In this document: positions 11,518 to 29,017 of the stretch, piece by piece
Numbering within the stretch: position 1 is the stretch's first letter
How the letters are laid out: each line of letters starts with the position of its first letter
Assembly: GCF_017163755.1 (NCBI RefSeq)
Contig: NZ_JAFIWC010000038.1
Location: 1 to 35,927, forward strand
Reading direction: 5' to 3'
Length of the DNA: 35,927 bases
Source: Xanthomonas sp.
GTDB lineage: Bacteria; Pseudomonadota; Gammaproteobacteria; Xanthomonadales; Xanthomonadaceae
The notes under the pieces: generated by a model
Databases searched by the model: none
Seen by the model: the letters and a program-made list of their open reading frames with translations, nothing else
What the model was told of the DNA's origin: nothing
Translations under genes and position numbers: made by a program

Positions 11518-11608
11518 TTGTAGGAGCGGCTTCAGCCGTGACCGGGACTTACCGGTAACGCCCCGGTCGCGGCTGATCCCGAAAAGGGGACAAGAGCCGC
11601 TCCTACAA
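11518..11608. repeat. REP-like palindrome with GTAG foot, between hutH and hutG
   Basis: TTGTAGGAGCGGCT at 11518-11531 is inverted perfectly at 11595-11608. Inner arms at about 11533-11546 and 11560-11573 also pair. The GTAG plus GAGCGGCT arrangement resembles REP/SMAG repeats of xanthomonads. Related units are at 21245-21312, 22862-22929 and 23064-23131. Confidence 0.8.
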
Positions 11609-19130: not shown

Positions 19131-19388
19131 ATGGCGGACATCAAGGCGGCCTTCGAAAAGGCGGCCAATGACATCAAGCAGCGCGCCGAACGCCCCGACA
19201 ACGACACCCTGCTGCGCCTGTACGCGCTGTACAAACAGGGCTCGGAAGGCGATGTGTCCGGCAACAAGCCCGGCTTCTTCGATTTCGTCGGCACCGCCAA
19301 ATACGAGGCCTGGGCCAAGCTCAAGGGCATGCCGCAGGCCGAGGCGCAGAAGAAATACGTGGACCTGGTGAAGAAGCTGCTGGCCTGA
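19131..19388 (+). CDS. Acyl-CoA-binding protein (ACBP)
   Basis: An 85-residue four-helix ACBP, the usual length. Signature residues include LLRLYALYKQGSEGDVSG, then KPGFFDFVGTAKYEAWAKLKGM with the Lys and Tyr that contact the acyl-CoA adenine and phosphate, and the final KYVDLVKKLLA. It binds medium to long-chain acyl-CoA in the cytoplasm and serves as a carrier or pool former. ACBPs are patchily distributed in bacteria. The ATG at 19131 follows AGGGAGCACTCCG, a good ribosome site. The stop shares one base with the start of the TetR gene, so the two are cotranscribed. Confidence 0.95.
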   Translation: MADIKAAFEKAANDIKQRAERPDNDTLLRLYALYKQGSEGDVSGNKPGFFDFVGTAKYEAWAKLKGMPQAEAQKKYVDLVKKLLA

Positions 19389-20014
19389 TGGCGCGCGACA
19401 CCCGCCAGCGCATCCTCGACGCGTCGCTGGCGATGTTCAATGCCCAGGGCGAGCCGCACGTCACCACCAACCACATCGCCGACGAACTGGAGATCAGCCC
19501 GGGCAATCTGTACTACCACTTCCGCAACAAGGACGACATCATCGAGCACCTGTTCGCGCGCTACGAGGAGCGCATGGACGCGGCGCTGGAGTTGCCGGGC
19601 GCGCGCCTGCCCGGGCTGGAGGACATCTGGCTGCAGTTGCACCTGGTGTTCGAGTGCATCTGGGACTACCGCTTCCTGTATCGCGACCTGATCGAGATCC
19701 TCAGCCGCAGCCGGCGCCTGCGCCTGCGCTTCGCGCGCATCCTGCGCCGCGCCGACGACAGCGCGCAGGCGGTGTTCCTGGGCCTGGCCCAGGCCGGGGT
19801 GATGCGCGCCAGCAAGCAGGAACTGGACGGGCTGGCCACCAACGTGCTGGTGATCGCCACGTTCTGGCTCAACTACGCCGCCGCGCGCGGCGAGAAGGAC
19901 GAGCAGCTGGCGATCCGCCAGGGCATCGTGCAGGTGATGCTGCTGATCGGCCCGTTCCTGCGCGAGGCCGAACGCGCCCACCTGGCCACGCTGATGCGCG
20001 CCTACCTGGACTGA
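19388..20014 (+). CDS. TetR/AcrR family transcriptional regulator
   Basis: A 208-residue TetR-family regulator. The helix-turn-helix covers about residues 20-55 (VTTNHIADELEISPGNLYYHFRNKDDIIEHLF). The C-terminal ligand domain is Leu/Arg-rich with FRDLIEILSRSRRLRLRFARI-like helices and a late hydrophobic segment. It overlaps the acyl-CoA-binding protein gene by one base (TGATG), so its effector may be an acyl-CoA or related lipid; this is inference from context. No operator was identified upstream of 19131, apart from the flanking heptamer repeats, which I do not take as operators. Confidence 0.9.
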   Translation: MARDTRQRILDASLAMFNAQGEPHVTTNHIADELEISPGNLYYHFRNKDDIIEHLFARYEERMDAALELPGARLPGLEDIWLQLHLVFECIWDYRFLYRDLIEILSRSRRLRLRFARILRRADDSAQAVFLGLAQAGVMRASKQELDGLATNVLVIATFWLNYAAARGEKDEQLAIRQGIVQVMLLIGPFLREAERAHLATLMRAYLD

Positions 20015-20072: not shown

Positions 20073-20849
20073 GTGAGAACCGTCACCGCCACCCGCTACG
20101 TCACCCCGCTGCGCGAAGGCGGCTCGCTGCCTGCCGTGATCGAGGCCGACGACGACGGCCTGTACGTGTTGAAGTTCCGCGGCGCCGGGCAAGGCCCCAA
20201 GGCGCTGATCGCCGAGCTGCTCGCCGGCGAACTGGCGCGTGCGCTGGGCCTGCCGATGCCGGAACTGGTGTTCGCGCTGCTCGACCGCGAGTTCGCGCGC
20301 ACCGAGCCCGACCCGGAGATCCAGGACCTGATCCGCGCCAGCGAAGGCCTGAACCTGGCGCTGGACTACCTGCCCGGCGCGATCAACTACGATCCGGCCG
20401 CACTGCGCCCGGCGCCGGCGCTGGCCTCGGCGATCGTCTGGTTCGATGCCTATGTCACCAACGTCGACCGCACCGCGCGCAACACCAACCTGATGGTGTG
20501 GCACGGCCGCCTGACCCTGATCGACCATGGCGCGGCGCTGTACTTCCACCACGACTGGGAACACGCCGGCGCCGCCTGCGCCTCGCCGTTCGCGCGCATC
20601 CGCGACCACGTGCTGCTGCCGTTCGCCAGCGGCATCGCCCAGGCCGATGCCGAACTGGCGCCGCGCCTGGACGACGCGGTCATCGACGCGATCGTGGCGC
20701 AGATCCCGGACGCATGGCTGCAGGCCGAGGCCAGTTTCGACAGCGTCCAGGCGCATCGCCAGGCCTATGCCGATTACCTGAAGCAGCGCCTGGCGCTGCG
20801 CGCCGCGTTCGTCGAGGAGGCGCTCCGTGCCCACGCCGCACACGTATGA
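20073..20849 (+). CDS. HipA-like kinase domain protein (HipA_2 type)
   Basis: A 258-residue stand-alone kinase-fold protein related to HipA but lacking the HipA N-terminal subdomain. Lys34 in LYVLKFRG could be the ATP lysine. GQGPKALIAELLAGELARALGLPMPELVF matches the N-lobe of HipA-type kinases. The catalytic loop reads FDAYVTNVDRTARNTNLM (Asp132, Asn137), and the metal Asp is in LTLIDHGAALYFHH (Asp151), so the catalytic set looks complete. GTG at 20073 is the only early start. It overlaps the DUF3037 gene by 23 bases. There is no HipB-like antitoxin upstream, so this is not a normal hipBA module; the substrate is unknown. Confidence 0.85.
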   Translation: MRTVTATRYVTPLREGGSLPAVIEADDDGLYVLKFRGAGQGPKALIAELLAGELARALGLPMPELVFALLDREFARTEPDPEIQDLIRASEGLNLALDYLPGAINYDPAALRPAPALASAIVWFDAYVTNVDRTARNTNLMVWHGRLTLIDHGAALYFHHDWEHAGAACASPFARIRDHVLLPFASGIAQADAELAPRLDDAVIDAIVAQIPDAWLQAEASFDSVQAHRQAYADYLKQRLALRAAFVEEALRAHAAHV

Positions 20850-21219
20850 CTATGCGGTCATCCGCGTGGTGCCGCGGGTGGAACGCGAGGAATTCGTCAA
20901 CGTCGGGGTGATCGTCTCCTGCCCGACGTCGCGGCTGCTCGAAGCGGTGATCGAACTGGACGCGGCGCGGCTGCGGGCGCTGGACCCGACGCTGGACGTG
21001 GAACGGCTGCGCCCCTACCTGGACGCCATCCCGGCCATCTGCCGCGGCGAGCCGGACGCAGGACCGATCGCGCTGTTGCCGCCACGCGCGCGCTTCCACT
21101 GGCTGACCGCGCGGCGCAGCTCGGTCATCCAGATGTCGTCGGCCCACGTGGGCCGCACCACGCAACCCGAGCGCGTGGTCGAGCACCTGCTCGAACGCAT
21201 GGTGCGGACGCCGCGCTAG
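20827..21219 (+). CDS. DUF3037 domain protein
   Basis: A 130-residue protein covering the whole DUF3037 family. The N-terminal core is YDYAVIRVVPRVEREEFVNVGVIVSCPTSRLLEA, typical of this domain, and the C-terminal part has IQMSSAHVGRTTQPERVVEHLLERMV. No membrane segment or signal peptide is present. GTG 20827 has GGAGG (20815-20820 region) upstream inside the kinase gene. The 23-base overlap means the two proteins are made together. Family knowledge: DUF3037 genes often lie next to HipA-like kinase genes, but the biochemical role is undescribed. A REP-like palindrome follows 25 bases after the stop. Confidence 0.88.
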   Translation: MPTPHTYDYAVIRVVPRVEREEFVNVGVIVSCPTSRLLEAVIELDAARLRALDPTLDVERLRPYLDAIPAICRGEPDAGPIALLPPRARFHWLTARRSSVIQMSSAHVGRTTQPERVVEHLLERMVRTPR

Positions 21220-21244: not shown

Positions 21245-21312
21245 TGTAGGAGCGGCTTCAGCCGCGACGGGGTTTCCCGGTACCGCCCGTCGCGACTGAA
21301 GTCGCTCCCACA
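21245..21312. repeat. REP-like palindrome (GTAG type)
   Basis: TGTAGGAGCGGCTTCAGCC opens the unit at 21245, and its imperfect inverted copy ends in GCTCCCACA at 21312. Each arm has its own small hairpin, for example GCGGCT/AGCCGC. It is the same family as the unit in the hut operon, placed between the convergent DUF3037 and phasin-like genes. Confidence 0.8.
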
Positions 21313-22861: not shown

Positions 22862-22929
22862 TGTGGGAGCGACTTCAGTCGCGACAGGCTTTGCCGGTAG
22901 AGCCCGTCGCGACTGAAGTCGCTCCCACA
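22862..22929. repeat. REP-like palindrome, first tandem copy
   Basis: TGTGGGAGCGACTTCAGTC at 22862 is inverted at the end of the unit (to 22929), with the spacer AGGCTTTGCCGGTAGAGC between the arms. The variant GTGG replaces the GTAG seen in two other copies. Confidence 0.8.
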
Positions 22930-23063: not shown

Positions 23064-23131
23064 TGTGGGAGCGACTTCAGTCGCGACGAGCTTTGCCGGT
23101 AGAGCCCGTCGCGACTGAAGTCGCTCCCACA
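23064..23131. repeat. REP-like palindrome, second tandem copy
   Basis: Nearly identical to the unit 202 bases upstream, with GAG for AGG at the inner edge of the left arm. The arms pair almost perfectly. Confidence 0.8.
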
Positions 23132-26198: not shown

Positions 26199-28910
<2,712 letters not shown>

Positions 28911-29017
28911 TCGGGTTCCGTAGTCTGGTGGCTAATCGACCAGGACGCGAGCCCGCGGGCAGCGGGCCTGCCGGCACCTGAGAATCCGGGGCGCCAGGCG
29001 GTCGATCGAACCGCCGA

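Follow-up and report, generated by a model that had tools for sequence, protein, structure and literature searches.

A HipA_2-family kinase gene overlapping a half-length DUF3037 gene in Xanthomonas: a chromosomal branch of the HipAD family

The locus and its two proteins

The window analysed here, a stretch of 35,927 nucleotides from Xanthomonas sp. (assembly GCF_017163755.1, contig NZ_JAFIWC010000038.1), lies on contig 31 in a genome of 5.07 Mb and carries a HipA_2-family kinase gene that overlaps a gene for a DUF3037 protein, referred to here as the partner. Both genes are intact, real open reading frames (ORFs), and the genome contains one gene of each family. Stenotrophomonas and Xanthomonas massiliensis are the nearest named relatives in a public genome scan and in the kinase tree. 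The features of the locus are the following.

20073..20849, + strand: HipA_2-family kinase gene, 258 aa from a GTG start (Pfam, alignment)
20827..21219, + strand: gene of the short DUF3037 partner, 130 aa from a GTG start, lacking the C-terminal half seen in HipD-type partners
20827..20849, + strand: overlap of the kinase 3' end and the partner 5' end, 23 bases, +1 frame (read from the sequence)
19388..20014, + strand: TetR-family regulator, conserved across the genus as the upstream neighbour (context, outside the pair)
26202..28931, - strand: gyrA, encoding DNA gyrase/topoisomerase subunit A; marks the linkage of the site (context)

The kinase matched the Pfam family PF20613 (HipA_2) at 72.5 bits (cut-off 27), and thus belongs to this family, with K34, E48, D132/R133, N137 and D151 in place and an invariant loop R14-E15-G16-G17-S18. 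A first-pass annotation had credited it with its ATP lysine, Asp132/Asn137 and Asp151, and the alignment agrees: K34, D132, N137 and D151 were identical in 73/73 rows of kinases with a short partner like that of the window and in 11/11 rows of kinases with a long, HipD-type partner. The same annotation described the kinase as devoid of the HipA N-terminal subdomain and of a HipB-like antitoxin; Pfam detected no HipA N-terminal domain or HipB-type domain in either protein of the pair, and PF13657 (Couple_hipA) had no match across the whole source genome. Neither PF13657 nor PF07804 (HipA_C) matched the pair proteins, which sets the kinase apart from canonical HipA, and hhalign against a canonical HipA of the same genus gave a probability of only 0.4%.

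The partner matched PF11236 (DUF3037) over its full length (profile positions 1–118 of 118) at 142.7 bits (cut-off 22.6). Its residues R20, R89, S98, Q102, H107 and G109 were identical in 86/86 short rows, and in the same alignment the position of S98 was occupied by Glu in 11/15 long rows. Invariance outside the catalytic residues was confined to the short group, whereas the catalytic residues are common to both groups. Both genes evolve under purifying selection, with dN/dS of approximately 0.19 (kinase) and 0.15 (partner), compared with 0.24 and 0.16 for two neighbouring genes (8 comparisons each).

Kinase and partner were folded separately with AlphaFold2, yielding models with mean pLDDT of 91.3 and 93.5, respectively. 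Structure comparison placed the kinase model closer to CtkA and PI4K-II than to HipT or HipA. CtkA, a Helicobacter pylori kinase, shares 15% identity with the window kinase and was not found by sequence search; searches for solved relatives of the kinase or the partner by sequence returned noise only, as they did for the phage HipA.

Relation to HipAD and other kinase systems

The first-pass annotation held that no role had been described for such pairs. That statement is out of date, as the same domains occur in HipAD (DS-6), in the defence candidate PDC-M66 and in the effector pair of Retron-Sda1, and defence roles are reported for HipAD and Sda1. According to PMC13092281, which cites Brenes and Laub 2025, the system DS-6 was renamed HipAD and its partner contains both DUF3037 and DUF1829; a contact between kinase and partner is predicted there, and a kinase mutant loses defence. 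PMC12548924 reports that the HipA/DUF3037 pair of Retron-Sda1 protects against phage Bas51 even when the retron parts are absent, that deletion of the kinase abolishes defence and that deletion of the DUF3037 gene is toxic.

The window pair resembles HipAD in gene order, with a HipA_2 kinase gene followed by an overlapping DUF3037 gene, in its catalytic residues, and in being homologous throughout the kinase and in the DUF3037 half. It differs in several respects. HipD, the antitoxin of the long pair that phage record PV340545.1 (an E. coli prophage) annotates as HipA toxin and HipD antitoxin, has 275 aa, and DUF3037 matches only its first half; its C-terminal half, for which DNA contact has been predicted in print, is missing from the 130-aa window partner. 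The overlap spans 4 bp in HipAD and 23 in the window, the kinases are 29% identical, and HipAD is phage-borne whereas the window pair is chromosomal.

The window kinase matched model M66A of the PADLOC candidate PDC-M66 nearly end to end (positions 11–252 of 270, 86.8 bits), but the partner matched M66B only at positions 2–129 of 281 (38.9 bits), so that the second model is covered in part. Retron-Sda1 has the same two domains, but the C-terminal region of its partner resembles a DNA-binding protein of retrons (PMC12548924), and it adjoins a retron, a neighbour that was not identified in the window. HipBA and HipBST have HipB and HipS as partners instead of a DUF3037 protein, and no profile match was detectable between the window kinase and the canonical HipA of HipBA.

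HipD-type partners measure approximately 275–290 aa, and the partner of the window consists of the DUF3037 half only. This division recurs in larger samples. DUF3037 matches were found in 23 of 398 Pseudomonadota genomes and fell into two classes of score: 10 genomes scored at least 134.9 bits, and the other 13, whose matches lie in frames of at least 268 aa, no more than 97.2. Among 247 Bacteroidota genomes, a sample whose centre was picked for having the pair, 50 matched; 37 of them scored at least 126 bits and the remaining 13 no more than 91.4, and 11 of these 13 lay in frames of at least 288 aa and two did not. A kinase tree of 38 rows separated 28 short-partner from 10 long-partner kinases with support of 100/100, and an earlier tree of 46 rows gave the same split at 99/98; both trees are unrooted, with long branches between the groups. 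The 38-row tree uses a subsample of 28 short rows; L090 (extreme branch), L079 (157 aa) and L088, L089 and L091 (no kinase found) were dropped from it. The window kinase groups apart from the known HipAD kinases. Within the genus of the window, genome G007 carries a long pair and no short one.

The window pair is thus a separate branch with a half-length partner, as judged from sequence. Because of this position, the HipAD and Sda1 results apply to it by homology only. In our literature search, no paper set the half-length partner apart as a branch of its own, and no test of the short-partner branch was found.

Pairing, overlap and inheritance

The pairing of kinase and DUF3037 genes is obligate and far beyond chance. 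In a public genome scan with at least 590 confirmed loci, the kinase gene lay directly upstream of the DUF3037 gene on the same strand in 80/80 of the best loci, although in two of them (L142 and L156) the kinase frame appears broken or doubled. The same arrangement was found in 30/30 Bacteroidota loci measured (30 of the 37 high-scoring loci), and 38/38 short loci (L041–L078) carry the kinase. Among 297 genomes of the family, DUF3037 occurred in 110 and HipA_2 in 111, the two lists matching save for one kinase fragment (G077), and DUF3037 was single-copy in 108 of the 110 positive genomes. Distances of kinases and partners correlated with r 0.90 over 38 pairs, as expected of co-inherited genes. 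The recurrence proposed in the first-pass annotation therefore extends beyond close relatives, as the pair spans phyla; 7 of 194 cyanobacterial genomes, a sample likewise centred on a genome picked for having the pair, also matched DUF3037.

The window kinase shares 50–63% identity (mean 56) with 30 Bacteroidota kinases and the window partner 36–55% (mean 43) with the corresponding partners, which were the 30 best of 50 matches in a family-profile search, with L188 and L224 excluded. Identities of the best 80 scan loci are inflated, because the scan retained those loci that matched its query best. The 11 long-partner kinases show a mean of 30% identity among themselves, the short branch being the more conserved of the two.

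As the first-pass annotation had read from the DNA, the DUF3037 gene starts inside the last 23 bases of the kinase gene, forming a two-protein unit made together. The kinase stop and the partner start stand in one register in 46 of the 78 loci measured and in a second register, 9 bases away, in 23 (the other two of the 80 loci lacked the motif used). The register of the window was also found in 20/30 Bacteroidota loci, 19 of them with a start codon giving exactly 23 bases, and an 11-base overlap occurred in 9/30; the 23-base overlap recurs in Cyanobacteria as well as in Bacteroidota. Conservation of the overlap across phyla suggests selection for coupled synthesis. One exception is Leptolyngbya boryana plasmid p1 (L188:5757-6429), where the DUF3037 gene is intact, the kinase is annotated with 267 bp (truncated) and transposase genes lie near.

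Within the genus, 9 of 20 genomes carry the short pair, in each case with the TetR gene on one side and the genes that follow downstream on the other. In a genome lacking it (G004, locus L030), a DUF3037-like stretch persists directly after the TetR gene (76 bases, 82%, E 6e-15), and this remnant points to loss of the pair; the other pair-less sites of the genus showed no convincing remnant. As in the window, gyrA lay within the available flank in 24 of 29 loci (L092–L120, mostly Stenotrophomonas), two more had the intervening gene within it, and none of the other 51 scan loci showed this linkage. Therefore, the site near gyrA is old in the Xanthomonas-type/Stenotrophomonas group, with losses, and the pair is placed elsewhere in other lineages.

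The inheritance of the short branch is chromosomal, mainly vertical and housekeeping-like. It had no confirmed locus in IMG/VR (32 pattern matches, none confirmed), compared with 36 viral loci for the long form, a contrast that is overstated because an alignment served as the query for the short form and a phage protein as that for the long form. With a chromosomal long-form query, the phage collection of 50,697 records contained 0 short and 3 long forms, and 72,556 plasmids contained 6 and 22, respectively. Among the matches listed, neighbours of 13 long loci included integrase, head and portal families (25 of 93 families listed) and also restriction-modification, whereas those of 14 short loci were mostly without them; the PHROG matches listed for short loci (25 of 30 families) included no integrase or phage structural family. 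Single short-form neighbours matched DRT and DpdF models. These scans, which took the longest ORFs, at most 11 per locus, dropped ORFs above 900 aa and have family counts inflated by redundant models, serve as supporting evidence only. A conserved third gene was sought and rejected: no family besides the pair occurred in all lineages, and those present in 3–5 of 8 groups were dispersed through the flanking regions.

Several individual loci deserve separate mention. A Streptomyces globosus plasmid (L186:5225-6366) carries the short pair amid polyketide genes, near an elfamycin efflux gene (facT). In the myxobacterium Enhygromyxa salina (L129), the pair is nearest to that of Pseudoxanthomonas, with flanking genes in common, reflecting either recent transfer or contamination. 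A contig titled Bacillus subtilis (L104) has a pair and gyrA flank of Stenotrophomonas type and is probably a contaminant. In the window itself, a 23-base element is repeated at 11520-11542, 21246-21311, 22863-22928 and 23065-23130, mostly as facing pairs; it gave 7 matches at no more than 3 mismatches, with 0 expected from shuffles, and looks like a REP-type palindromic repeat.

Proposed function and rival explanations

With moderate confidence, we propose that the pair is a chromosomal, mainly vertical branch of the HipAD family in which a translation-coupled kinase is restrained by a dedicated DUF3037 partner. Most likely, it works like HipAD, yet as a chromosomal module and not as a mobile defence cassette. 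The kinase is catalytically intact, and the DUF3037 protein would be its dedicated inhibitor or regulator, binding and restraining it as HipAD and Sda1 lead us to expect. Since the partner gene begins within the kinase gene, translational coupling could hold the two proteins in a fixed proportion. Once restraint is lifted by some trigger, the kinase might phosphorylate a cellular target and thereby slow growth. The partner would not repress its own promoter, because the HipD C-terminal half predicted to contact DNA is missing, and coupling may replace promoter control.

A possible but less probable explanation is that the pair is an ordinary anti-phage toxin-antitoxin system, functionally equal to HipAD and incidentally chromosomal. 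Both genes match PDC-M66, the HipAD and Sda1 pairs are reported to confer defence, DRT defence models have matches beside one short-form locus, and presence is patchy (110/297 family genomes, 23/398 phylum genomes). Against this stand the absence of confirmed IMG/VR loci and of phage-collection records, the fixed site with gyrA, the slow evolution of the short form and the lack of a common third gene or, among the PHROG matches listed, of an integrase or phage structural family near it, in contrast to the integrases, head and portal proteins listed near the long form.

It is unlikely that the two proteins constitute a signalling pair, in which the kinase would phosphorylate Ser98 of the partner, the phosphorylated partner would be the output, and the Glu of HipD would mimic a fixed phosphorylated state. 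The invariance of Ser98 in the short rows and its frequent replacement by Glu in the long ones, the single copy in 108/110 family genomes and the high conservation of both proteins agree with it, but the Ser98 pattern comes from one alignment, a structural role for this residue is equally likely, and nothing indicates that the kinase reaches it. There is similarly little chance that the short pair is an old multi-phylum kinase/receiver module acting through Ser98, and HipAD a fast-evolving sister that exchanged Ser for Glu and added the C-terminal half; the unrooted tree does not give the order of origin of the two forms. A lipid or small-molecule substrate instead of a protein, as for PI4K-II, is improbable, as CtkA, titled a proinflammatory kinase in the PDB, scores above PI4K-II, and HipT and HipA have the same fold.

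The recognition of HipAD as a toxin-antitoxin pair for phage defence is recent. If its widespread chromosomal sister, the translation-coupled kinase and half-length partner proposed here, has a non-defence role, it would offer a view of the divergence between a kinase module of the cell and a weapon of phages, and the short pair provides a clean test of the DUF3037 domain acting alone. Tools that assign all HipA_2/DUF3037 pairs to defence could give the short branch a wrong label; this branch accounts for 10 of the 23 DUF3037 genomes in the Pseudomonadota sample and for approximately 37 of the 50 in the Bacteroidota sample.
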